The position numbers were made by a program, and so were the translations under genes. Shown here piece by piece: positions 1 through 64,000 of a DNA stretch of 64,000 bases; position 1 is the stretch's first letter, and every line of letters begins with the position of its first letter. The notes beneath the pieces were generated by a model. It had not been told where the DNA came from, made no database searches, and worked only from the letters and a program-made list of their open reading frames with translations. The stretch comes from Bacteroidetes bacterium RIFCSPLOWO2_12_FULL_37_12. Its GTDB lineage: Bacteria; Bacteroidota; Bacteroidia; 2-12-FULL-37-12. Location of the stretch: assembly GCA_001769655.1 (NCBI GenBank), contig MEPC01000042.1, positions 1 through 64,000 of the forward strand, read 5' to 3'.

Positions 1-396
1 GGAAGGATTAATTGCGGCATCGGCATCGTTGCAATCGGTGTTATCGGAAACAAAACCCAATGGAGCGCTACAATCGGATGCTGTTGTACCGGCGTCACCA
101 TAAGTGTCACCGTCAGTATCGGCGTAGTAAGTATTTTGTACTCCTTCGTCAATTTGACCATCGCAATTATTATCAATGCTGTCGCAAACTTCTACTGCGG
201 AAGGATTAATTGCGGCATCAGCATCGTTGCAATCAGTGTTATCGGAAACAAACCCTAACGGAGCGCTACAATCGGATGCTGTTGTACCGGCATCACCGTA
301 AGTGTCACCGTCAGCATCTGCATAGTAGGTATTTTGTACACCCTCGTCAATTGAGCCGTCGCAGTTGTTATCAATGCTGTCGCAAACTTCTACTGC
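1..396 (-). repeat. Two near-identical 198-bp MopE units
   Basis: Positions 1-198 and 199-396 are direct 198-bp (66-codon) copies, about 90% identical by eye. Most other units of the array have diverged far more. This indicates a recent unit duplication at the distal end of the array. Confidence 0.85.
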
Positions 397-3300
397 GGAA
401 GGATTTACTGCGGCATCGGCATCGTTGCAATCACCGCCAACTAAAACGAATGGTGAGCCAGGGTCAGAGCAAAGCAAAATTGCAGAGGCATCTACTCCAA
501 ATCCATCGGTATCATTATCTTCATAATAAGTAAGATAAGGAATACCATCGTCAGCTAAACCGCTACAATCGTTATCAATGCCATCGCAGACCTCAGTGGC
601 ACCAGGATTAATTGTTGCATCCCCATCGTTACAGTCACCACCTGTAGTTACATAAGGAGCGCCTGGGTCAACGCAAGCAACTAACAAGGTTGCATCATTA
701 CCAAAACCATCTGCATCTCCATCAGCAAAGTAATTTACAGGAGAGAATCCTTCATCCGCAACTCCATCGCAATTATCATCTATACCATTGCAAATTTCAA
801 GTGCGCCTGGATAAGCTCCAGGGTTAGTATCATCGCAATCGCCAGAAACTGTTAAATAAGGAGCTCCTGGATCGGCACAGAAGAACTCCGCAGTCATGGA
901 GCCGAAGCCGTCACCATCCATATCTGCATACACTACAAATGGACCACCTTCATCAACCACTCCATCGCAATTATCATCTAAGCCATTACAGGGAACTTCA
1001 GCGGCACCTGGATTAATAGTAGCATTGTTATCATCGCAATCCGCATCGTTTGTTACAACGTTAGGACCTGCTGTGCAAGTGAGGAATCCCGCATACGCTC
1101 CGCCATAAGTGTCACCATCGTTATCAAACCAATAGTCGGCACCTGGGTCTGGAGTTAGACCTTCGTCAACATTTCCATCGCAGTTATTATCCAACCCATC
1201 ACATAATTCGAGAGCGCCTGGATAAACAGTGGCATTCCAATCCTGGCAATCGCCTCCTGCAAGTACATAAGGAGCTCCAGGATCTACACAATAATCCTGT
1301 GACCAATCACCGAAACCGTCAGTGTCACCATCCCAGAAATAAGTTGTTTTAACAGAACCTTCGTCAACAACTCCATCGCAATTATCGTCAATTTCGTTGC
1401 AGATTTCAATTGCAGTGGGATTTATTGCAGGGTTATTATCATCACAATCCCCACCAATTAAAACCCAACCAGCTCCTGGATCAAAACAGGACTCGGTTAT
1501 ATTTCCATCTCTACCAAAAGCGTCTCCATCAGCATCAGCATAGTAGGTTGTAGTGGCGAAACCCTCATCAACGGCTCCATCACAATTATCGTCCATGCCA
1601 TTACAAACTTCAGTGGCACTGGGATTAACGGCTGGGTTCCAGTCATCGCAATCACCATTAGAAAGAGTCCATGGGAAGCCAGGATCGGAACAGAATTGTT
1701 TGTTGTTAAAATTATTCCCATATCCGTCGGCATCGTTATCAAAGAAGTAAACTAATGAGCCGGCAAATCCCTCATCAATTGTTCCATCGCAATTATCGTC
1801 TATGCCATTGCAGATTTCAGTGGCACCGGGATTAATAGCGGCATCCCACTCAACACAATCGCCATCTACTAAAGACCAGCCCATGCCTGGATCAACGCAG
1901 AAATTATTTGCCCAAGTACCATATCCATCGTTATCAGCGTCATTAAAATAGGTGGTGAGAGAAAATCCTTCGTCCACCATTCCATCGCAATTGTTATCTA
2001 TATTATCGCAAATTTCAACTGCACCTGGGTTAATCGCAACATCCCAGTCATTGCAATCACCCGATGTGGCTACGTAAGGCGAACCAGGGTCAGTGCAGGA
2101 TCTAATGGAATTCCAATTATCACCAAAGCCATCTCCATCGTTATCCATATAATAAAGAACTGATTCAGCGAAGCCCTCGTCAATATCTCCGTTACAGTTA
2201 TTATCAAATGCGTCACATACTTCAGCGGCACCTGGATTTATAAAAGTATCAGCATCGTTACAATCGCCTGAAAGGGCTGTGAAAGGTGCAACCGGTGTGC
2301 ATAAGAAATTACCAACGAAGGCAGAGCCATAGTTATCACCATCCAAATCGTAGAAATAAGATGCAGGTCCAGTAACAGGATAACCTTCATCTACAGAACC
2401 ATCGCAGTTATCATCTTTTCCGTTACAAATTTCAATACCGGCAGGATTGATAACGGGGTTTGAATCATCACAATCTCCAGTCATAAGTGCCCAATCGGGA
2501 CCTGGAACAAAAGAGAAATCCTGACTAAATGTACCATATCCATCCATATCACCATCATAGTAGTAAGTAGTTACCGTACAACCTTCATCCACTGTTCCAT
2601 CGCAATTATTGTCCTGACCGTCGCAGATTTCAACTGCACCTGGATAAGTAGAGGCATCCCAATCGGCACAATCACCGTTGGCAACAATCCATGGGTTGCC
2701 GGGGTTTGGGGTACAGAAGTAACCGACATTGCCACCATAGCCATCGTTATCATAGTCGGAGTAAAGGGTATAAGTGCTACCTTCGTCTACAACACCATCA
2801 CAATTTTCATCAATACCGTTGCAAGGGGCTTCCGGTGCACCGGGGTAAATGGTAATGTCATTATCGTTACAGTCACCGGTTACATTTGAGAGATAAGGAA
2901 CGGAAGGAGTACAGTTTAAGGTTCCTGCCCAGTTGCCTCCGAATGCATCACCATCCAAATTCCAGAAATAATTTGTAGCGGGACTTCCATCGGCAAGACC
3001 TTCGTCAACGAATCCGTTGCAGTTATCGTCAATGCTGTTACAAACTTCCGTAGCGGCTGGATTAATTTCAAATTTCCCATCGTTGCAATCACCACCTACC
3101 AAGCTCCAACCAACACCAGGGTCAACACAATACATTTGTTCCCAAGTTCCATAACCGTCAGCATCCAAATCGTTGAAATAGGCAGTTTTTGAGAAGCCCT
3201 CGTCCACCATCCCATCGCAGTTATTATCTAATTCATCGCAAACCTCAGCAACACCAGGGTTCATAGCGGGATTGTTATCGTCACAATCACCTCCAACCAA

Positions 3301-6300
3301 CATCCAGGGCCATCCTGGGTCGCTACAATATTCCTGAGCCCATCCACCAAAACTATCACCATCCCAATCGGTAAAATAAGTTGTTTTAGAGAATCCTTCA
3401 TCTGCTACACCATCGCAGTTATTGTCTTTGTTATCACAAATTTCACTTGCGGCGGGGTTAGTAGCAGGATTTGCTTCATCACAATCACCACCTATTAAAG
3501 ACCATTGGATGCCAGGATTAACACATGACAACATTGTATTCCAATCCACACCGAATCCATCAAAGTCGGCATCGTAATAATAAACGGTTGATTCGGAGAA
3601 ACCCTCATCAATTGCACCATCACAGTTATCGTCTGTTCCGTTGCAAATTTCTAATGCGGCTGGATTAATATTCATGTCCCACTCGGCACAATCACCTCCA
3701 ACTAAAGACCAACCCATTCCAGGGTCAACGCAGAAATCCTGTGGCCAGGAACCATATCCGTCATTATCACCATCGCTAAAATAGGTTGTTTTTGTGTAAC
3801 CTTCGTCAACTGTACCATCGCAGTTATTGTCAACGCCATCACAAATTTCAGCGGCTGAAGGGTTAATGAATATGTCCCAGTCAAGGCAGTCACCGGAAAC
3901 AGGTGCCCACATAGAATCGGGAGCGGCGCAGAAGAATTTTGTATCCCAATCCACCCCAAAACCATCGCCATCATTATCTTTGAAATAGACCTGTGATTCT
4001 GTAAAGCCCTCATTTACGGTGCCATCGCAATTATTGTCCATGCCGTCACAAATTTCAATAGCGGATGGATTTACTGAGAAGTTCCAATCATCGCAATCAA
4101 GGTCGTTCGTGACAAATTGAGAATCGGGAGTACAAATAAAATTACCTGCATAATTACTTCCAAAGCCATCCCAATCATTATCAAAGAAATAGGTAGTAGG
4201 AGGAATAACTACGAAGCCCTCGTCCATTTGACCATCGCAATTATCATCTTTACCGTTGCAAATTTCAGTGGCACCGGGATTAACGGCAGGGTTCCATTCT
4301 TCACAATCACCACCCATCGTTGACCAATCGGTTCCGGGTATGTATGAGAAATCCTGTGAATAAGTACCGTAACCATCGTAGTCACCGCCATCATAGAAGA
4401 ATGTCATCATAGAACAACCTTCATCAACCGAGCCATCGCAATTATTATCCTGACCATCACAAATCTCCATTGCAACGGGATTAATTGCAGGATTCCAATC
4501 AGCGCAGTCGCCGCCGGTAGTTATCCATGGATAGCCGGGGTTTGGATTACAGAAATAACCGGCAGAGCCACCATAACCATCGTTATCCCAGTCGGAATAT
4601 AAAGTGTATGCGGAGTTTTCATCCGTAGCGCCATCGCAATTTTCGTCAATACCATTACAAGGAATTTCAGCGGCGGCAGGGTTTATCGCTGGATCCCAGT
4701 CCTGACAATCTCCTACCATGGTAACCCAACTTGGGTCGGGAGTACAGGTGAGATCCATGCACCAACCTCCACCAAATCCATCGCTATCTTCATCTTTACA
4801 ATAATAAACGGGTGAGCCGGTGCCTAAGCCCTCATTTACTTCACCATTACAATTATTGTCTTTGCCATCGCAAACTTCAACGGCACCGGGATAGGTATTA
4901 GGATCACCATTATCGCAATCACCACCGCTTAATGACCAATCCAAACCTGGGTTTAAGCAAAACACAGCGAAGTTGCCAAAGTCGCCATATCCGTCATTAT
5001 CACCATCGTAAAAATAAGTGTTTTGAGAGAAGCCCTCATCAATAATGCCGTCGCAGTTATTATCAATGTTATCACAAATTTCTGTTGCCAGAGGGTTAAT
5101 CAAAGTATCCAAATCATTACAATCACCGTCGGTTAAACTCCAACCGGAACCGGGGTCAGAACAAAATTCCTGCATCCAACTACCATAACCATCAGCATCC
5201 ATATCGTTATAGTAGGTAGTTTTTGTATATCCCTCATCTGTCATACCATCGCAGTTATTATCAATATAATCGCAATCTTCGAAAGCACCTGGATTAATGG
5301 ATGCATTCCACATATCGCAATCGCCTCCGAGTAATGACCATGGGAATCCGGGGTCAACACAATAATCCTGTGACCAGGCTGTTCCATAGCCATCGCCATC
5401 TTCTCCGTCATAATAATAAGTTGTTTTAGAAAATCCTTCGTCAACCATACCGTCACAGTTATCATCCATCTCATTGCAAATTTCAATTGCAGATGGATTT
5501 ATAGCTGGGTTCCATGGTTGGCAATCGCCTCCTGCTAAAACCCAAACAGGGCTAACTGAAGAGCAGGTTTGTTTGATGTTTCCATCATCACCATAAGTGT
5601 CACCGTCACCGTCATAGTAGTATAGAGTAGGAGTAAATCCTTCATCAATTAAACCATCGCAGTTATTATCTTTTCCGTCGCATTTTTCAATAGCGCTGGG
5701 ATTAATGAGTGGGTTCCATTCATAACAATCGCCACCCAAAGCAACCCAAGGTGAACCTGGGTTGAAAGTAAAATCCTGGGACCAGGATCCATAACCGTCA
5801 TTATCATTTCCGTCATAATAGAAGGTAAGCATAGCACATCCATCATCCGCAATTCCATCACAATTATTATCCATGCCGTCGCAGATTTCAACTGCGGAAG
5901 GATTTACAGTGGGATCCATATCATTACAATCGCCATTGTTTAAGAGCCATGGAGAGCCGGGGTCAACGCAAGAGAAAATGAAATTCCAATTATCACCGAA
6001 TCCGTCACCGTCGTTATCATTATAATATTTAACTGACTCAGAAAAACTATCGTCAATGGTGCCATTGCAATCATTATCGTATCCATCACAAACTTCAGGG
6101 TTTCCTGGGAAGGAGGCAGGGTTATTATCGTTACAATCGCCGTTTACAGTAGAATAACCTAATCCCGGATTACAAATCAGATTAGCGAGTAATCCCATTC
6201 CGTAACCATCCATATCCATGTCATAATAATAGGAGGCAATGGGTTCAACAGGTAAACCTTCGTCAATTTCTCCGTTGCAGTTTTCATCTTTTCCGTTGCA

Positions 6301-9300
6301 AATTTCAATGGCACCCGGATTTTTACCGGAGTTATTATCATCACAATCGGTGCTATCTAATGAATAAGACATACCGGGATCATAACAGTATAAATTAGAA
6401 CCGCCCCAAGGATTACCGTACCCATCATTGTCCCAGTCATAGAAATATTTTGAGAATGTTAAACCTTCATCATACATACCATTACAATTTTCATCGGGTC
6501 CACCACAAAGTTCTATTGAACCAGGATTAACACCAGGATTCCAGTCATCACAATCTCCAGATAATAACGACCATGTAGAGTCGGGTAAATAACATACACT
6601 AATTGAATTCCATTCATAACCATAACCATCGCCATCATTATCCTGATAATAGGTATTGAAGGTAAGACCATCGTCCATCATACCATCGCAGTTATCGTCC
6701 ATAGCATTGCAGATTTCGGTTGCCCCTGGATTTATAGATGCATCCCAAATATTACAGTCACCTCCTGAAAGTACCCAGGTTGAATCGGGTACATAGCAGA
6801 TGTTCTGAGTATTCATGTCATCTCCGTAACCATCAGCATCGTTATCCTGATAGTAAGTAGTAAAAGTTAAACCATCATCTGACATTCCATTGCAATCATT
6901 ATCCATCCCATCACAAATTTCAACCATACCCGGATTGATACCTGCGTTCCAGTCATCGCAATCACTGCCCGTTAATGACCAAGTTGAATCAGGAACAAAG
7001 CAGACGTACTGTGTATTCCAATCGTATCCGTAACCGTCTAAGTCGGTATCATAATAGTAAGTATTGAAAGTTAAGCCATCGTCTGACATTCCATTGCAAT
7101 CGTTATCCAATCCATCACAAATTTCAGGTGCGCCTGGATTTATTCCTAAATTCCAGTCATTGCAATCACCACCTGTTAATGACCAAGTTGAATCTGGCAA
7201 ATAACAGATATTTTGAGTACTCATGTCATCTCCGTAACCGTCTAAATCATTGTCAAAATAGAACGTATTGAATGTTAAACCATCGTCGGTTATTGCATTA
7301 CAGTCATTGTCAATACCGTCACATATTTCCGGGTTACCGGGGAATATAGCGGCATTCCATTCCTGACAGTCAATTGAGAGGACCCATGCAGAAGTATCGG
7401 GAGCGGTGCAAATAGAGGTTGTATTCCATTCCCATCCGAAACCATCGCCGTCATAATCCCAATAATAGGTTGTAAAAGCGGCATCTTCGTCATACATTCC
7501 ATCGCAATCGTCGTCTATTCCGTTGCAGTTATCTACCAGACCAGGATATACAGCAGGGTTAGTATCGTCACAATCACCATCAATAGTAACAAGACCAGGT
7601 AATCCGGTGCAAGAAAGGTTGCCGGCATAAGCATAACCATAGGAGTCACCATCATTATCAACCCAATAGTCGGCAGGAGGAGCGGGTACAAGACCTTCGT
7701 CCACACTAAAGTCGCAGTTATTATCTTTTCCGTCACAGAGTTCAGAATTTCCAGGGAACATGGAATTATCATTATCATTACAATCATTAGGGTTCAATGA
7801 CCAAGGGCTTCCTGGATCAGCGCAGAAAAATCCTGAATTAGCTCCGTATCCATCTGCATCATTATCGTAATAGTAGGTTAAAGGAGCACCTTCGTCAATT
7901 TGGCCATTACAGTTGTTATCTATACCATCGCAAACAACTTCAGCGGCAGAAGGATTAATTGCTGGTTCATTATCATCACAATCGGAAGAGTTGTTAATGA
8001 AACCAGGACCCGGGTCGCAAGCAATATAATTAAAATACATGCCACCAACAGCATCAAAGTCATTGTCAAAATAGTACCAATCGGAAGGAAGAACGGGGAA
8101 TCCTTCATCTATTTGACTATCACAATTATTATCATATCCATCGCAAATTTCGGTGGCGCCGGGGTTGATAGCCGGATTGCCATCATCGCAATCACCAGGT
8201 ACTAAAACATAAGGGATTCCAGGATCGCTACAATAACTTGCAGACCAGCTACCATAAGCGTCTCCATCACTGTCATAGAAATATGTAGTAAAAGTCAAAC
8301 CATCGTCACCCATCATATTGCAATCATTATCTAATCCGTCGCATACCTCAGGATTTCCAGGGAAAATAGCGGCATTCCATTCATCGCAATCACCACCGGT
8401 TAAAACATAAGGTACTCCCGGATCGCTACAAAGGTCCTGAGACCAAGAACCGAAACCGTCGCCGTCGCCACCATCATAATAATATGTTGTATAGGTTATA
8501 CCGTCATCTGCTGTACCATTGCAATCGTTATCCTGACCATCGCAGATTTCTGGGTTTCCGGGAAATCTTGCGGTATTCCAATCTTCACAATCACCCCCGT
8601 TGAGTGTCCAAGGTAGGCCTGGGTCACTGCAGATATTTTGTGAGTTTGAACCGCCAAAGCCATCCCCATCCCCATCCCAATACCATATATTATATGTAAG
8701 ACCTTCGTTTATAAAACCGTTGCAATCATTATCATAACTGTCGCAAATTTCGGGGTTGCCAGGAAAGCGGAAGTTGTTGTTATCATCGCAATCACCATCA
8801 ACTAAAGCCCAGTTAGGCATGGATTGACAAGAATTATTAGTTGACCAGGAGACACCAAAACCATCATTATCGCCATCCCAATAATAGGTTAGGAAAGTAA
8901 AACCCTCATCGGACATGGCATTGCAATTGTTATCCCATCCATCACAAATTTCTGTAGCACCTGGGTTTACATTAACATCCCAATCAGCACAATCACCTCC
9001 TGTTGTTGCCCAACCTGAATCAGAAGGAGGGTTACAGAATGTAGTAGAGTTCCAATCTACTCCGTATCCATCAAAATCATTGTCCCAGTAATAGGTTGTC
9101 AAGCCGGTACCTTCATCCATTTCACCATTACAATTATTATCCATACCATCACAAATTTCAACAGCTCCCGGGTAAATTGCAAAGTTCCAGTTATCGCAAT
9201 CGCCACCCACTAATGAATATGTAGAATCCATTGGATTACAAGAGTTAGTAGAATCCCAATCAGCACCGTATCCATCTCCATCCCAATCCCTGTAATAGGT

Positions 9301-11313
9301 AAGTGACTCACCAAAACCTTCATCAATCTGTCCATCGCAGTTATCATCCATACCGTTACAAACTTCATCGGCACCTGGATACATATTCGGGTCCCATTCG
9401 GAACAATCGCCTCCGTAGAGAATCCATCCAGGACCGGGGATGACACAACTCTGCATCATGTTAGTGCCACCATATCCGTCATTATCTCCATCATAATAAT
9501 ACATTTTTGATTCAGAGAAACCTTCATCAATGGTACCATCGCAATTATTATCTTTTCCATCGCATATTTCACTGGCACCAGGATTAATGTCGTAATTCAA
9601 ATCCTCACAGTCGCCGCCTGCTAAAACATAAGGGGCACCGGGATCAAAACAATAATTACTTGACCAGCTTCCATAGCCATCTGCATCATTATCATAAAAA
9701 TAAGTAGTAGATATTCCTTCATCAGTTTCTCCATTACAATTATCATCAATACCGTTGCAGATTTCTGTTGCACCGGGGTTAATGGCTGGATTCCACCCAT
9801 CACAATCACCCCCTAATAAAGTATAGGGAGCACCGGGGTCATTACAATAATTAGATTGCCATGTACCGTAACCGTCTCCATCATCATCATAAAAATATTC
9901 AGTGAAAGATAATCCATCATCTGTTAAATTATTGCAATCGTTATCCACGCCATCACAAACTTCTGTGGCACCCGGATATATGTTTGAATCCCAGTTGTTG
10001 CAATCGCCTGCAGTTAAAGACCAATTAGCACCGGGGCTTGTACAACTAAAGTTGGTGTTCCAAAAATCTCCATAACCATCCATATCATTATCATAGTAGT
10101 AAGTTTGGAAAAACAGCCCTTCATCAGATAAGCTATTGCAGTCGTTATCTTGTCCGTCGCAGATTTCGGTTGCGCCTGGGAACACAGTAGTATCCGAATC
10201 ATTACAGTCACCACTTGACAGGGACCATCCGGCACCGGGGTCCTGACAATATGATTGACCCCAAGAACCGTAACCATCTCCGTCGGTGTCATTATAATAA
10301 GGAGTAAAAGTTAGTCCATCGTCCACCATTCCATTACAATCGTTATCAATACCATCACAAACTTCTAAAGCTGAAGGGTTAATTGCAATATCTCCATCGT
10401 TACAATCATCGCTTGCAGTTACGTAAGGAGCGCCGGGATCGTAGCAAAGGTTTGCATAATAGTTGGAACCAAAGCCATCGCCATCAAGATCTTCATAATA
10501 ATTTGAAAAAGACAGACCCTCGTCTGCTGAGAAAGAGCAGTTATTATCCAATCCATCGCAGATTTCAGTGTTTAAAGGAAAGTTATTGTTATTATTATCG
10601 TCGCAGTCGCCACCGGTAGTAATATATGGTGCGCCGGGGTCTGAACATAGGGTAGTTGATGAGAAATCGTCGCCGTAGCCATCAAGGTCGTTATCTATAT
10701 AGTATGCCATAAAGGTTAAGCCACCATCATCAATCAAACCACTACAGTCATTGTCAAGTCCGTCACATACTTCAGGATTTAAGGGAAAAATCAGGTTGTT
10801 TCCATCATCGCAGTCGGTATTGTCAACAATACCACAAGCAGTATTTGTAAAAGCACCAAAGCCGTCACCGTCATTATCGGGATATAACCACTGAAAATCA
10901 TCGCAATCGGAATTATCCAGAATACCGCAACCAACAGGAGCGCCACCAAAACCATCTCCATCATTATCGGCGTACAAGAACTGTGCATCATCGCAGTCGG
11001 TATTGTCGGGCACTCCACCACATGCAACAAAAGAACCTGAACCAAAACCATCGCCGTCAATATCACTCCAAGTTTGTAGAGCATCGTCACAGTCGGTATT
11101 GTCGGGAACTCCACAACCGGCCAAAGGACCTGCACCAAAACCGTCACCGTCGTTATCGGCATATAACCACTGCGTGTCATCACAGTCGTCAACGCCGGCA
11201 AAGAAGCCGTCGCCGTCATTGTCCTGTGCCACTAAAGTTTTAGAACCTGCAAGAGCGAGATTCAAGAAACAGAAAACAAAAAGAATGCGGAGAAAACGAC
11301 ATGAGTTAGTCAT
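1..11313 (-). CDS. Giant secreted MopE-repeat (metal/Ca-binding motif) protein, 3' partial
   Basis: The frame is open from an ATG at 11313 to the window edge (3771 codons, no stop), so the C-terminus lies outside. The first ~20 residues are a signal peptide ending in LALA. Four or five short units of about 33 residues follow (pattern DNDGDGFG...DNTDCDD), then about 53 units averaging 68 residues. Each unit reads roughly YYxDxDGDGYG, a Cys-x-DPG segment, GGDCxDW, NPGAxEICDG and DNNCDGxxDEG. This is the Cu-binding_MopE / 'putative metal-binding motif' family, related in style to thrombospondin type 3 Ca-binding repeats. With about four Cys per unit the mature protein has roughly 200 cysteines, probably in disulfides, plus many DxDxDG sites. 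Frame was checked at both ends and near 5640, 4430 and 2600. Inference: a very large extracellular, cation-rigidified surface fibre. A T9SS C-terminal domain is expected but not visible. The metal is not known; copper should not be assumed. Confidence 0.93.
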   Translation of the reverse strand, partial: MTNSCRFLRILFVFCFLNLALAGSKTLVAQDNDGDGFFAGVDDCDDTQWLYADNDGDGFGAGPLAGCGVPDNTDCDDALQTWSDIDGDGFGSGSFVACGGVPDNTDCDDAQFLYADNDGDGFGGAPVGCGILDNSDCDDFQWLYPDNDGDGFGAFTNTACGIVDNTDCDDGNNLIFPLNPEVCDGLDNDCSGLIDDGGLTFMAYYIDNDLDGYGDDFSSTTLCSDPGAPYITTGGDCDDNNNNNFPLNTEICDGLDNNCSFSADEGLSFSNYYEDLDGDGFGSNYYANLCYDPGAPYVTASDDCNDGDIAINPSALEVCDGIDNDCNGMVDDGLTFTPYYNDTDGDGYGSWGQSYCQDPGAGWSLSSGDCNDSDTTVFPGATEICDGQDNDCNSLSDEGLFFQTYYYDNDMDGYGDFWNTNFSCTSPGANWSLTAGDCNNWDSNIYPGATEVCDGVDNDCNNLTDDGLSFTEYFYDDDGDGYGTWQSNYCNDPGAPYTLLGGDCDGWNPAINPGATEICNGIDDNCNGETDEGISTTYFYDNDADGYGSWSSNYCFDPGAPYVLAGGDCEDLNYDINPGASEICDGKDNNCDGTIDEGFSESKMYYYDGDNDGYGGTNMMQSCVIPGPGWILYGGDCSEWDPNMYPGADEVCNGMDDNCDGQIDEGFGESLTYYRDWDGDGYGADWDSTNSCNPMDSTYSLVGGDCDNWNFAIYPGAVEICDGMDNNCNGEMDEGTGLTTYYWDNDFDGYGVDWNSTTFCNPPSDSGWATTGGDCADWDVNVNPGATEICDGWDNNCNAMSDEGFTFLTYYWDGDNDGFGVSWSTNNSCQSMPNWALVDGDCDDNNNFRFPGNPEICDSYDNDCNGFINEGLTYNIWYWDGDGDGFGGSNSQNICSDPGLPWTLNGGDCEDWNTARFPGNPEICDGQDNDCNGTADDGITYTTYYYDGGDGDGFGSWSQDLCSDPGVPYVLTGGDCDEWNAAIFPGNPEVCDGLDNDCNMMGDDGLTFTTYFYDSDGDAYGSWSASYCSDPGIPYVLVPGDCDDGNPAINPGATEICDGYDNNCDSQIDEGFPVLPSDWYYFDNDFDAVGGMYFNYIACDPGPGFINNSSDCDDNEPAINPSAAEVVCDGIDNNCNGQIDEGAPLTYYYDNDADGYGANSGFFCADPGSPWSLNPNDCNDNDNSMFPGNSELCDGKDNNCDFSVDEGLVPAPPADYWVDNDGDSYGYAYAGNLSCTGLPGLVTIDGDCDDTNPAVYPGLVDNCNGIDDDCDGMYDEDAAFTTYYWDYDGDGFGWEWNTTSICTAPDTSAWVLSIDCQEWNAAIFPGNPEICDGIDNDCNAITDDGLTFNTFYFDNDLDGYGDDMSTQNICYLPDSTWSLTGGDCNDWNLGINPGAPEICDGLDNDCNGMSDDGLTFNTYYYDTDLDGYGYDWNTQYVCFVPDSTWSLTGSDCDDWNAGINPGMVEICDGMDNDCNGMSDDGLTFTTYYQDNDADGYGDDMNTQNICYVPDSTWVLSGGDCNIWDASINPGATEICNAMDDNCDGMMDDGLTFNTYYQDNDGDGYGYEWNSISVCYLPDSTWSLLSGDCDDWNPGVNPGSIELCGGPDENCNGMYDEGLTFSKYFYDWDNDGYGNPWGGSNLYCYDPGMSYSLDSTDCDDNNSGKNPGAIEICNGKDENCNGEIDEGLPVEPIASYYYDMDMDGYGMGLLANLICNPGLGYSTVNGDCNDNNPASFPGNPEVCDGYDNDCNGTIDDSFSESVKYYNDNDGDGFGDNWNFIFSCVDPGSPWLLNNGDCNDMDPTVNPSAVEICDGMDNNCDGIADDGCAMLTFYYDGNDNDGYGSWSQDFTFNPGSPWVALGGDCYEWNPLINPSAIEKCDGKDNNCDGLIDEGFTPTLYYYDGDGDTYGDDGNIKQTCSSVSPVWVLAGGDCQPWNPAINPSAIEICNEMDDNCDGMVDEGFSKTTYYYDGEDGDGYGTAWSQDYCVDPGFPWSLLGGDCDMWNASINPGAFEDCDYIDNNCDGMTDEGYTKTTYYNDMDADGYGSWMQEFCSDPGSGWSLTDGDCNDLDTLINPLATEICDNIDNNCDGIIDEGFSQNTYFYDGDNDGYGDFGNFAVFCLNPGLDWSLSGGDCDNGDPNTYPGAVEVCDGKDNNCNGEVNEGLGTGSPVYYCKDEDSDGFGGGWCMDLTCTPDPSWVTMVGDCQDWDPAINPAAAEIPCNGIDENCDGATDENSAYTLYSDWDNDGYGGSAGYFCNPNPGYPWITTGGDCADWNPAINPVAMEICDGQDNNCDGSVDEGCSMMTFFYDGGDYDGYGTYSQDFSYIPGTDWSTMGGDCEEWNPAVNPGATEICNGKDDNCDGQMDEGFVVIPPTTYFFDNDWDGFGSNYAGNFICTPDSQFVTNDLDCDDWNFSVNPSAIEICDGMDNNCDGTVNEGFTESQVYFKDNDGDGFGVDWDTKFFCAAPDSMWAPVSGDCLDWDIFINPSAAEICDGVDNNCDGTVDEGYTKTTYFSDGDNDGYGSWPQDFCVDPGMGWSLVGGDCAEWDMNINPAALEICNGTDDNCDGAIDEGFSESTVYYYDADFDGFGVDWNTMLSCVNPGIQWSLIGGDCDEANPATNPAASEICDNKDNNCDGVADEGFSKTTYFTDWDGDSFGGWAQEYCSDPGWPWMLVGGDCDDNNPAMNPGVAEVCDELDNNCDGMVDEGFSKTAYFNDLDADGYGTWEQMYCVDPGVGWSLVGGDCNDGKFEINPAATEVCNSIDDNCNGFVDEGLADGSPATNYFWNLDGDAFGGNWAGTLNCTPSVPYLSNVTGDCNDNDITIYPGAPEAPCNGIDENCDGVVDEGSTYTLYSDYDNDGYGGNVGYFCTPNPGNPWIVANGDCADWDASTYPGAVEICDGQDNNCDGTVDEGCTVTTYYYDGDMDGYGTFSQDFSFVPGPDWALMTGDCDDSNPVINPAGIEICNGKDDNCDGSVDEGYPVTGPASYFYDLDGDNYGSAFVGNFLCTPVAPFTALSGDCNDADTFINPGAAEVCDAFDNNCNGDIDEGFAESVLYYMDNDGDGFGDNWNSIRSCTDPGSPYVATSGDCNDWDVAINPGAVEICDNIDNNCDGMVDEGFSLTTYFNDADNDGYGTWANNFCVDPGMGWSLVDGDCVEWDAAINPGATEICNGIDDNCDGTIDEGFAGSLVYFFDNDADGYGNNFNNKQFCSDPGFPWTLSNGDCDDWNPAVNPSATEVCNGMDDNCDGAVDEGFATTTYYADADGDAFGRDGNITESCFDPGAGWVLIGGDCDDNNPAINPTAIEICNEIDDNCDGVVDEGSVKTTYFWDGDTDGFGDWSQDYCVDPGAPYVLAGGDCQDWNATVYPGALELCDGLDNNCDGNVDEGLTPDPGADYWFDNDGDTYGGAYAGFLTCTAGPNVVTNDADCDDNNATINPGAAEVPCNGLDDNCDGVVDEGGPFVVYADMDGDGFGSMTAEFFCADPGAPYLTVSGDCDDTNPGAYPGALEICNGIDDNCDGVADEGFSPVNYFADGDADGFGNDATLLVACVDPGAPYVTTGGDCNDGDATINPGATEVCDGIDNDCSGLADDGIPYLTYYEDNDTDGFGVDASAILLCSDPGSPFVLVGGDCNDADAAVNPSAVEVCDSIDNNCDGSIDEGVQNTYYADADGDTYGDAGTTASDCSAPLGFVSDNTDCNDADAAINPSAVEVCDSIDNNCDGQIDEGVQNTYYADTDGDTYGDAGTTASDCSAPLGFVSDNTDCNDADAAINPS
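2399..4690 (-). repeat. Higher-order (about 9-unit, 1.83 kb) duplication inside the MopE array
   Basis: Three consecutive units at about 2399-2870 match those at about 4231-4690 in order and detail. Shared oddities are a unit whose Cys is replaced (SQDFS), then DEGC, then a YFC-x-PNPG unit, then a PCNGIDENCDG unit. The offset is about 1830 bp, nine units. A related PCNG unit sits at about 961, one further step away. Confidence 0.75.
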
Positions 11314-11545
11314 GGTTTTTTGAGTTAAAGGGTTAATTGATAAATAATATTTGTTTCATAAATGATGTTTCAACCGGTAAAAAATTGTCCGAAAATGGGG
11401 TTGGAACAAGTAAAAGGAAGTGCGAAGATAAATCAAAGATTTGAGATTTCCAAATTTTTTTAGAGATTTTTTTTGGAAAGTTTTCCACAGGGGGGTAGGG
11501 AGAAAGGGAGAACGGGAGAAAGGGAGAAAGGTAATTTCCAAGAAT
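11314..11545. other. Intergenic region between the MopE gene and cvpA, with an 8-bp satellite
   Basis: This is the 5' side of the MopE gene and the 3' side of the CvpA gene. It holds four copies of the 8-bp unit AGGGAGAA (one variant) at 11497-11531. I see no convincing TAnnTTTG box or hairpin, and no gene. Confidence 0.7.
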
Positions 11546-60875: not shown

Positions 60876-63800
60876 TTAATACATCACCATCAACCGACCA
60901 AGAGAAATCAACTTCCCCTCTGAACGTACACTATAAACATATACCCCCTGAGGCAAGAGTGTGAGGTTTAACAAAGTGTTGGTTTCAATCTGTTGGATAG
61001 AAAGGGAAAGCATCTTTTTTCCTTGCAAATCCGAAATTTCAAACAGCGCCGGAGTTTCTTCACCATAATTATGAACTACTTTAAAAATACCCTGGGCGGG
61101 GTTGGGATAAAGCTGAAAACTTAATGTATTATCAATGGTTGATTTTAAATTATCGTTTGTTTCTTGAAAAGGATTTTCTTTAGAAACAGATGATTTATTT
61201 GTTCCTTTCAGTTTATTATCAACTGAATTTTCCGGTTGCAGATTTAAAGCAGAAGAAACTGTTCTTGCGTTTGAATTGGCAGAATTAATAATTCCACAAT
61301 TTGGAATAATGTTTTCAAATTCTATTTGGGAAATGGCGCCGGCATAAAATTGTTTTTCTGACGCTACCCAACATTCCCATTGTTCTACCCAATCCTTTTC
61401 TTGCATTCTAACCCAAGTTTTAGTTTGTTCCAATAACGGCAATGAAACATCATGCCTTCCCGCCATCCGCAAAACTTGTGCTTTTTCCATTGATACAAAT
61501 AACCGTTTGAAATAATCAGTGTCACCGGTGTTGGCTTCTTGTATTAATTTATCCTGCACTTCAACGACCATCTGTAATTCAGGACTAAACACAGGACTGT
61601 TTTCTTCACGCGTCATCTTGCCCGTAAGAAAGGCGTTGGAAATGGCTCTCATCATTTTCTGGTAGGCAAGTTTTAGTAATTCCTCTTCCTCCGGCTTGGG
61701 TTTCGGAATATTAAACATCAAAATCTGATTAAAAAGGTCTATCGCTTTACGGTCATCGTTAATCACATTTTCTCCGTGGCATGCATCTGATAAATCACAG
61801 CCGTTATGAATTTCCGACATTTTTTTTAAGGCGATACTGATGGCTTCGTCCAAACGTTTTTTTATAAAATCTCTTGTGGTTATTACCCTGCAACCCGGAC
61901 AAGGGTCCCTGTAAATATATGTCATAAAAGGAATGACGCCACACATTGGAATACTTGAGATGGGTGTTGGGTCAATTATTTGTACAGGCAGTAATAAATT
62001 TTTTTCTGCCCATAGACGAGATAATTGATAGTCCTCAGCCGATTGGGGCTTTCCATCTGATGGACTCGTGCTGTATTTCCAATAATTATAATTTGCATCA
62101 ATGGTTGAATTATCATTGCTTTTAATTATTGTTCCATTAACAATGCTTCTAGTGTTGGGAACTGCAGGAGAAAGAATGTTTAGCCCATTTTTCAGGTATA
62201 AGGACTTAGCTTTATACATCTCAATTGTATAGCCATTGTTGCCTGCATTCACCCAACCCCCATCGTGTTCCAGGTAAGGAGCATACACTGTTTTTATATC
62301 CGTATCAATGCCCATGTTCAATGTTCCATTTATGTCAACATAAATGCCTGTGCCATTAAGGGTGATTTGTGAGCAACGTATTTTGGCTGACACCCCTTTC
62401 ACGTTTACACCATACAAACTGTTATTATTAATAGTTGAAGAGGAAGTATATAAACTGCTTCCGGCGCCGCCATTGTATTCAACTCCTGTTTGATTATTTT
62501 TAATTTCGCAGTTATTCATAGTTGAACCGAAAACCGGCGCATCGGCTTTCCAACCGGTGGTGTTATTTAACAATTTTACCTTATAGAAAATGCCTCCTTT
62601 ACTATACGTATAAATGCCAGTTTCGCAATTCTGAAAAATACTGTTGCTGATAATAAGAGGAGAACCATCGCAAGTAGCGAGGTTAGCTGAGATTCCTCTG
62701 GTGGCGCCATCTACCATAATGTTGTCAATGGTAGCATAACATCCCCCGGTGCCAATTCCACCATGATTTGCGGTATTGAGTCTTAAAAAAGATGCGTTTC
62801 TAAAAACAAATTTTGTGTTTGCAGTCCTAATTCTGGCATTGGCGCCCATGAGTATGGTTCCGTCTTTTATGATAAATCCGGTAGTTCCATCCCAGTTGGG
62901 CAAGAGGTAAGTTTCATCTAAAATTTCTGCTATTTTATCATTGCGGTCACTTCCGATAAGAGTTATTTTTGAATTGGGACTTGTCATAATATCAGAAGCG
63001 CCAGTGCCATTGTTTGGCAACCCAAAACGGATAAATCCATCTCCCGTGAAAGTGAAATTCGCGTAATCGGCAACGGTGAGGTTGCCTCTGATTTCTACGA
63101 ATGGTTCAGGGTCAGCGGTAGGAGCGCCACTGAACACAATGCCTTTTCCGGAAGTAAGATTTTTATAAATAAATTGTGAAGTGGATTCTATAACCACCTT
63201 TCCACCTCTGTGAATTAAAATTTCTGCATTGTCTTCTATGGTAAAAGTACTTGTGTTGCGGAAGATAACAGTGCCACCGTTTTTTACTTCCAAATCATAT
63301 CTGGTCTGGTTACAGAAAAGACCAAGGGTTGAATTATCAATGATTAGTGAACGCCCGGCGTTCACTGTAATTTTGGGAATATCTACCCCGCCTAAATTAA
63401 TTGCGCTGTTTTTAATAGTTAAATCGGCATTTAGAAATATACCATTTATATTTTTAGTTTCACCATCCCATTGACTTGGGGAATCAATAGTTAAAGTTTG
63501 TGGCTCAGTTGCTAAATCGGATTCCCATATTCCTCTGCCAAAAGTAGCGGCAACAATTTTTCCGGTAGCGCTGTTTATTTCCAGATCGGTAACAAATACA
63601 GGAGGCAGGTTGGCGCTGAAACAAGACCATTGCGCCATGCACCCTTCTCTATAAAATACACCCACATCGGTACCTACATATAAACCGTTATTTGAACCCT
63701 TCTGATAAACAATGCAATTAATTGGAAATTCGGGTAATCCGGAAGAATAATCATTCCAGTTTGTTCCACCATCACTTGAATGATAAACCCGGGATACACC

Positions 63801-64000
63801 ATTACCGGACCCTACTGGATTTTCTGCAAATCCTCCGAGAGATACCCATAACTCCTGAGGATTGGTTGGGTTAATTACTAAATCAGTTACAGATCGCCAG
63901 CAAACAGATGGGAAATTTGTTGAAATATCTAACCAACTTGACCCTCCATTGGTTGTTTTGAATATTTTTTTTGATGGGGAACATGGGTAGGTAATTCCAT
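60876..64000 (-). CDS. Asp-box (BNR) surface protein with beta-helix and T9SS sorting domain, 5' partial
   Basis: The frame is open to the right edge (over 1040 codons), so the N-terminus is missing; an internal GTG at 63665 is not the start. The visible N-terminal part has Asp-box loops (TNGGSSW, SSDGGTNW) and VGTDVGVFYREG, a sialidase-like propeller of the WD/Vps10 kind. A right-handed parallel beta-helix-like region follows (about 62000-63400; NNCEIKNNQTGVEYNGGAGSS). Next is a helical segment with a CPGCR motif, and then the C-terminal T9SS type A domain (FQLYPNPAQGIFKVVHNYG...SDLQGKKMLSLS...LPQGVYVYSV). It is exported through T9SS; ligand unknown. Confidence 0.9.
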   Translation of the reverse strand, partial: GITYPCSPSKKIFKTTNGGSSWLDISTNFPSVCWRSVTDLVINPTNPQELWVSLGGFAENPVGSGNGVSRVYHSSDGGTNWNDYSSGLPEFPINCIVYQKGSNNGLYVGTDVGVFYREGCMAQWSCFSANLPPVFVTDLEINSATGKIVAATFGRGIWESDLATEPQTLTIDSPSQWDGETKNINGIFLNADLTIKNSAINLGGVDIPKITVNAGRSLIIDNSTLGLFCNQTRYDLEVKNGGTVIFRNTSTFTIEDNAEILIHRGGKVVIESTSQFIYKNLTSGKGIVFSGAPTADPEPFVEIRGNLTVADYANFTFTGDGFIRFGLPNNGTGASDIMTSPNSKITLIGSDRNDKIAEILDETYLLPNWDGTTGFIIKDGTILMGANARIRTANTKFVFRNASFLRLNTANHGGIGTGGCYATIDNIMVDGATRGISANLATCDGSPLIISNSIFQNCETGIYTYSKGGIFYKVKLLNNTTGWKADAPVFGSTMNNCEIKNNQTGVEYNGGAGSSLYTSSSTINNNSLYGVNVKGVSAKIRCSQITLNGTGIYVDINGTLNMGIDTDIKTVYAPYLEHDGGWVNAGNNGYTIEMYKAKSLYLKNGLNILSPAVPNTRSIVNGTIIKSNDNSTIDANYNYWKYSTSPSDGKPQSAEDYQLSRLWAEKNLLLPVQIIDPTPISSIPMCGVIPFMTYIYRDPCPGCRVITTRDFIKKRLDEAISIALKKMSEIHNGCDLSDACHGENVINDDRKAIDLFNQILMFNIPKPKPEEEELLKLAYQKMMRAISNAFLTGKMTREENSPVFSPELQMVVEVQDKLIQEANTGDTDYFKRLFVSMEKAQVLRMAGRHDVSLPLLEQTKTWVRMQEKDWVEQWECWVASEKQFYAGAISQIEFENIIPNCGIINSANSNARTVSSALNLQPENSVDNKLKGTNKSSVSKENPFQETNDNLKSTIDNTLSFQLYPNPAQGIFKVVHNYGEETPALFEISDLQGKKMLSLSIQQIETNTLLNLTLLPQGVYVYSVRSEGKLISLGRLMVMY

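Follow-up and report, generated by a model that had tools for sequence, protein, structure and literature searches.

A giant headless array of MopE-type repeats, with a collinear paralogue, in a Bacteroidota genome

Gene A and its probable continuation on a second contig

The window analysed here, 64,000 nucleotides long, is C42:1-64000 (MEPC01000042.1) of a 3.9-Mb genome, and its coordinate 1 is the true contig end. Across this end runs gene A, a single open frame on the minus strand that starts with an ATG at 11313 and extends through 3,771 stop-free codons off the contig start. A Pfam profile search found PF11617 (Cu-binding_MopE) in 53 stretches of the gene, with a total of 1592.5 bits; every unit passes the cut-off of 27 bits individually, and no Pfam family besides PF11617 was met in the 5′ part at E up to 0.001. 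The units are about 68 residues long and are spaced at 64–73 aa, and the 3,771 residues include 105 Trp and 208 Tyr. The initial annotation, made from the bare sequence, had described a frame of more than 3770 residues with about 53 units of about 68 residues and had named the Cu-binding_MopE family; all of this is borne out. It had missed the minus strand, the putative signal peptide with the four half-units that follow it, and the C-terminal part, which probably lies on contig C21. The parts of the gene within the window are as follows.

11423..11454, minus strand: putative Bacteroidetes-type promoter, TTTG-N20-TATCTTCG, from a pattern match and an alignment of the regions upstream of A and B
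1..11313, minus strand: 5′ portion of gene A, 3,771 codons running off the contig; it encodes the N-terminal portion of a protein no shorter than about 4,346 aa
11224..11313, minus strand: putative signal peptide, residues 1–30, of typical sequence, read directly; very similar in paralogue B
10897..11223, minus strand: four N-terminal half-units, residues 31–139, read directly, with approximate boundaries
1..10896, minus strand: array of 53 complete PF11617 units and part of a 54th, by Pfam scoring
5638..5838, minus strand: unit A26, a cysteine-swap variant, at the position collinear with B21
3601..5433, minus strand: units A28–A36, first copy of a nine-unit block, from centred identity against shuffles
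4216..4416, minus strand: unit A33, a cysteine-swap variant, at the position collinear with B26
1768..3600, minus strand: units A37–A45, second copy of the nine-unit block, on the same measure
2383..2580, minus strand: unit A42, a cysteine-swap variant and the block copy of A33
1..339, minus strand: unit A53 and part of A54, with which the youngest terminal run of near-identical units opens and at which the assembly breaks

The half-units consist of loop 1 and a CG..DNTDCDD stretch, and are devoid of the CDGxDNNCDG half. The genes around gene A (CvpA, YqeY, a D-Ala-D-Ala carboxypeptidase, NAD synthase and other housekeeping genes) suggest no functional link. At the far side of the window, positions 60876-63998 hold the last part of a longer frame, which spans 1,727 aa on the complete contig, bears a T9SS tail and otherwise has no Pfam match.

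Genome-wide, the 97 matches to PF11617 are limited to three contigs, namely C42 (53), C19 (37) and C21 (7). The last of these is 17,520 bases long, and its array is cut by the contig end itself, which leaves the 5′ side open.

L010:7823-9520 (G000:C21), minus strand: probable continuation of gene A, seven units and a T9SS tail, assigned from repeat similarity and open ends

The outermost C21 units share 85–91% DNA identity with the window edge, while matches of at least 100 bases to that edge outside C21 reach 74% or less. An exact overlap between the C42 and C21 ends was sought and none was found. The open 3′ end on one contig, the open 5′ end on the other and the youngest unit type common to both make the join very likely, such that C21 very probably continues gene A; the join is founded on repeat similarity and open ends rather than on reads, and the gap may hide further units. 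The smallest in-frame join gives a protein of about 4,346 aa with 61 units, a lower bound. The C21 frame terminates in a T9SS type A sorting domain (TIGR04183/PF18962; 27.8 bits, cut-off 23), which belongs to gene A on condition that the join holds. A C-terminal T9SS domain, for which the initial annotation had proposed to look, is thus present on the linked contig, and likewise on paralogue B.

The repeat unit and its predicted fold

When the 94 units of array A, the C21 part and B are aligned, three acidic loops (DxDxDGYG; DCxDxN..P...E; CDGxDNNCDGxxDE) and four Cys columns prove invariant or nearly so. Nearly all of these units have exactly four Cys, as the earlier estimate of about four had it; the accompanying suggestion of one or two cations for each unit is probably an underestimate, given three separate acidic loops. 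Five units (A26, A33, A42, B21 and B26) lack the first/middle Cys; each of them carries a Cys at its start instead, and no other unit among the 94 does. The probability of this coincidence is 1.8e-8 if units are taken as independent, a value that ignores their relatedness. The swap units pair collinearly, A26 with B21, and A33 and A42 with B26; the swap is therefore an old one, with probably no more than one or two origins. Loss of one cysteine accompanied by gain of another is the trace that a conserved disulphide would leave. In a separate departure from the pattern, the last unit ahead of the sorting domain in each protein, A61 (L010, C21) and B37 (L009, C19), lacks the third Cys and retains three.

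Sequences were tiled for analysis as non-overlapping three- and six-unit pieces. AlphaFold returned a pLDDT of 91.1 with a pTM of 0.52 for three units, and a pLDDT of 86.3 with a pTM of 0.39 for six. The prediction is hence confident inside the units (pLDDT 91), and of low confidence for their mutual arrangement and straightness. The initial annotation had proposed predicting consecutive units in search of a regular rod; these pTM values do not bear out the rigid fibre that it had envisaged. A Foldseek search yielded nothing significant, with 5w7c_D as its best match at E 9.4 and no match for six units.

Thrombospondin type 3 repeats (PF02412) resemble the array in their DxDxDG acidic loops with Cys pairs, and differ from it in unit length and motif order. 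This family, for which a profile search had also been suggested, was rejected, PF02412 being unmatched in gene A at E up to 0.001.

A collinear paralogue, array growth and relatives

The 37 matches on C19 belong to a second, complete gene.

L009:5523-13430 (G000:C19): paralogue B, 2,635 aa, 37 units by Pfam, with a T9SS tail of 29.1 bits

Paralogue B shares a closely similar putative signal peptide with A and has no half-units. Aligned unit by unit, A and B score 3.47, against 1.75 ± 0.17 (maximum 2.30) for 300 shuffled orders. A score so far above the shuffled ones traces both arrays to one long, ordered ancestor, whose units have kept their identities. Within A, units A28–A36 and A37–A45 show a mean centred identity of 0.114 (0.121 in the best register); the highest value among 300 shuffled arrays was 0.085, and on this measure the two runs are copies of one nine-unit block. 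Adjacent units are on average 0.76 identical from A53 onward versus 0.50 earlier, a pattern that places recent growth directly ahead of the sorting tail, where the assembly breaks.

Across unsaturated pairs of these terminal units dN/dS is about 0.02–0.26, as exemplified by A53/A54 (dS 0.36, dN 0.009) and A53/A57 (dS 0.39, dN 0.041), with A58/A60 giving the top ratio among clearly unsaturated pairs, about 0.26. Such values point to strong purifying selection on the units, which disfavours a spurious frame. A TTTG-N20-TAxCTTCG element lies 112–144 bases upstream of the ATG in both genes, reads TTTG-N20-TACCTTCG in paralogue B, and is conserved in the alignment of the two upstream regions; the pattern has one exact match in 64 kb versus 0.15 expected. 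It resembles the Bacteroidetes promoter consensus, and is a putative promoter. At its 3′ end paralogue B faces genes for a PorP/SprF-like membrane protein and for a giant protein whose C-terminal domain is of the gliding type, both named from reading the sequence.

The sample of relatives comprised selected whole genomes and at least 80 named loci, the latter drawn from a collection that covers 84,980 species. PF11617 is present in 12 of the 395 sampled Bacteroidota genomes, and by the unit profile the longest array outside the source genome has 32 units among the matches listed, in keeping with the initial remark that arrays of this length are unusual. PF11617 repeat proteins of Bacteroidota and Myxococcota share with gene A the family score, the four-Cys units, the three acidic loops and, in Bacteroidota, the T9SS tail. 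Gene A differs from them in its length, with about 61 units versus at most 32 among the matches listed, in having no head, and in being paired with a collinear 37-unit paralogue. A Saprospiraceae protein (L132) carries a calcineurin-like phosphoesterase head, 28 Pfam-scored units and Ig-like domains, then a T9SS tail; a further protein (L126:3883-13818, G152:C1), from the relatives sampled, joins a reprolysin-type protease with GEVED domains to 27 near-identical units and a T9SS tail. The latter array repeats with a 204 bp period in a single-contig genome, and looks as if it had expanded recently or been homogenised, in contrast to array A with its divergent units. Aestuariivivens insulae (L196), which is in culture, likewise has a long array, of 27 units. 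In other phyla, the partners of the array include a P-domain or a C-type lectin domain.

A search of genome contigs with the 1,300 C-terminal residues of the array in the window found no relative. Matches among IMG/VR viral contigs were weak, and the four examined are short vWA-type or single-motif proteins with no long array. Three IMG/VR loci (L049, L057 and L062), in which CDGxDNDC motifs precede an apparent vWA domain, look like bacterial lipoproteins, and are either phage-borne copies or misclassified contigs. In the literature, we found no paper that names PF11617 or describes such arrays in T9SS.

Metal, export and a proposed surface stalk

Array A holds not one His in 4,336 residues, and 884 Asp/Glu versus 46 Lys/Arg, for a net charge of about −838 over those 4,336 aa. 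Paralogue B has 17 His, 13 of them at a VHPGA-like position ahead of an invariant Pro, where A has none; the two paralogues thus differ at a position that is possibly metal- or pH-sensitive. Among PDB sequences, notable matches are confined to the N-terminal stretch of MopE (2VOV), which contains a 30-residue motif of this kind (E 0.0002), and to human acyloxyacyl hydrolase (PDB 5W7C), a weak match (E 0.034) that shares the DCxDxxxxxxPG...DxNCxG pattern. MopE has one motif stretch in the solved chain versus 61 here, and the hydrolase is an enzyme with one such motif; its structure, which also gave the single Foldseek match, below significance, reportedly contains bound Ca2+.

The Pfam name invites the reading that the array is a copper-binding surface protein like MopE, serving copper uptake, and when MopE from Methylococcus capsulatus weakly binds Cu(II) on a Cu column, it does require its N-terminal motif stretch (PMC3423442). 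However, MopE builds its strong Cu(I) site from two His and a kynurenine away from the 30-residue motif, and nitrogen ligands are seen at its weak Cu(II) sites (PMC3423442); the motif itself sits in the 46 N-terminal residues that are invisible in the crystal. With no His to build the two-His and kynurenine site, binding through a MopE-type site is rejected for array A, and copper uptake as its purpose is very improbable. The family name is, on this sequence evidence, misleading for array A. Calcium is the best inference for the metal of the units, on the grounds of the missing His, the acidic loops, the match to acyloxyacyl hydrolase, and the stabilisation of MopE by CaCl2 (PMC3423442).

Regarding export, the genome encodes the T9SS core components SprA (548 bits) and PorU (1188 bits), and at least 150 matches to the T9SS type A sorting domain occur in its 3.9 Mb. 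The T9SS secretome is very large, and several frames exceed 2,000 aa. In relatives the array occupies a stalk position between a catalytic head and the CTD, with varied partners, which makes it a modular spacer. By Pfam, no head or ligand-binding domain occurs in gene A, the C21 part or B, and by comparison with these relatives the two proteins are headless spacers.

The reading that we favour, and consider somewhat more probable than all others taken together, is that gene A encodes a giant surface stalk, stapled by disulphides, stabilised by Ca2+ and exported by the T9SS, akin to the extender of RTX adhesins. Within it, the export route, surface fixing, rigidity, metal and role are all deduced, the first two from the sorting tail, SprA and PorU. 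The chain would cross the inner membrane through its signal peptide, acquire its disulphides in the periplasm, leave folded through the T9SS pore and then be processed by the PorU sortase, so that the C-terminus would be fixed to the outer surface and the N-terminal half-units would form the outer tip. Each unit would fold round two or three Ca2+ with its three acidic loops and two disulphide staples, and the chain of units would make a long, stiffened filament held off the cell, much as an RTX extender does. At 2.5–4 nm per unit, our own estimate, protein A would measure 150–240 nm. As there is no head, the working part would be the filament or the tip half-units, most likely in adhesion or as a surface coat; adhesion as the role is a guess.

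Extenders rigidified by Ca2+ are an established mechanism in RTX adhesins (PMC4083281, PMC7493085); MpAFP is believed to form a rod of ~0.6 μm from about 120 Ig-like repeats with bound Ca2+ (PMC4083281). By analogy, the extenders of MpAFP (RII), SiiE and MhLap would share with the proposed protein A the tens of tandem domains, the Ca2+ and the place as a surface stalk. They differ in being Ig-like β-sandwich domains without this Cys pattern, and in T1SS rather than T9SS export; the Pfam search of A, B and the C21 part matched neither Ig-like extenders nor RTX repeats.

Several other functions deserve weighing against such a stalk. The roughly 884 acidic residues, the net charge near −838 and the absent head domain would also suit a polyanion that holds much Ca2+, or another divalent cation, at the surface as a store or sponge, or that templates a mineral, stiffness being a by-product. 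A sponge, however, would hardly need ordered, collinear, position-specific units with a conserved Cys pattern, and in relatives the array is a spacer ahead of the sorting tail; we regard a metal store as unlikely. A comparably small chance attaches to an adhesin whose ligand is bound by a face of the array or by the N-terminal half-units, stiffness being barely needed: the half-units of A are distinct, the protein bears a surface sorting tail and aromatic residues are many (105 Trp and 208 Tyr), yet B keeps its array without half-units, and no known binding domain was met by Pfam. The least credible of the three is a neutral, freely expanding repeat of little function that is open by chance. 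The recent multiplication at the C-terminal end and the greatly varying array length among relatives are what such a repeat would show, but purifying selection on the units already disfavours it, as do the unit order kept between A and B, the promoter-like element common to both, and the apparent export signals at both ends. A further arrangement may be entertained as a long shot: A and B would form a pair of filaments, ordered and headless, in which each unit has its own conserved place and the unit order itself is functional. Lateral A–B pairing, or a defined length with a defined set of binding faces, would be examples, and such a pair would amount to an undescribed kind of T9SS surface fibre.

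Gene A is thus confirmed as real and well conserved, an extreme member of a known repeat family; its array length, missing head and conserved unit order are unusual within that family. The shared old array, the duplication of a nine-unit block and the recent terminal run together trace, step by step, the growth of a giant repeat protein. The "Cu-binding" label of PF11617 should not pass to long arrays, array A being free of His and having the look of a stalk built on calcium and disulphides. If the calcium reading is true, the part played by extenders in RTX adhesins would have a second kind of domain to fill it, one exported by the T9SS.
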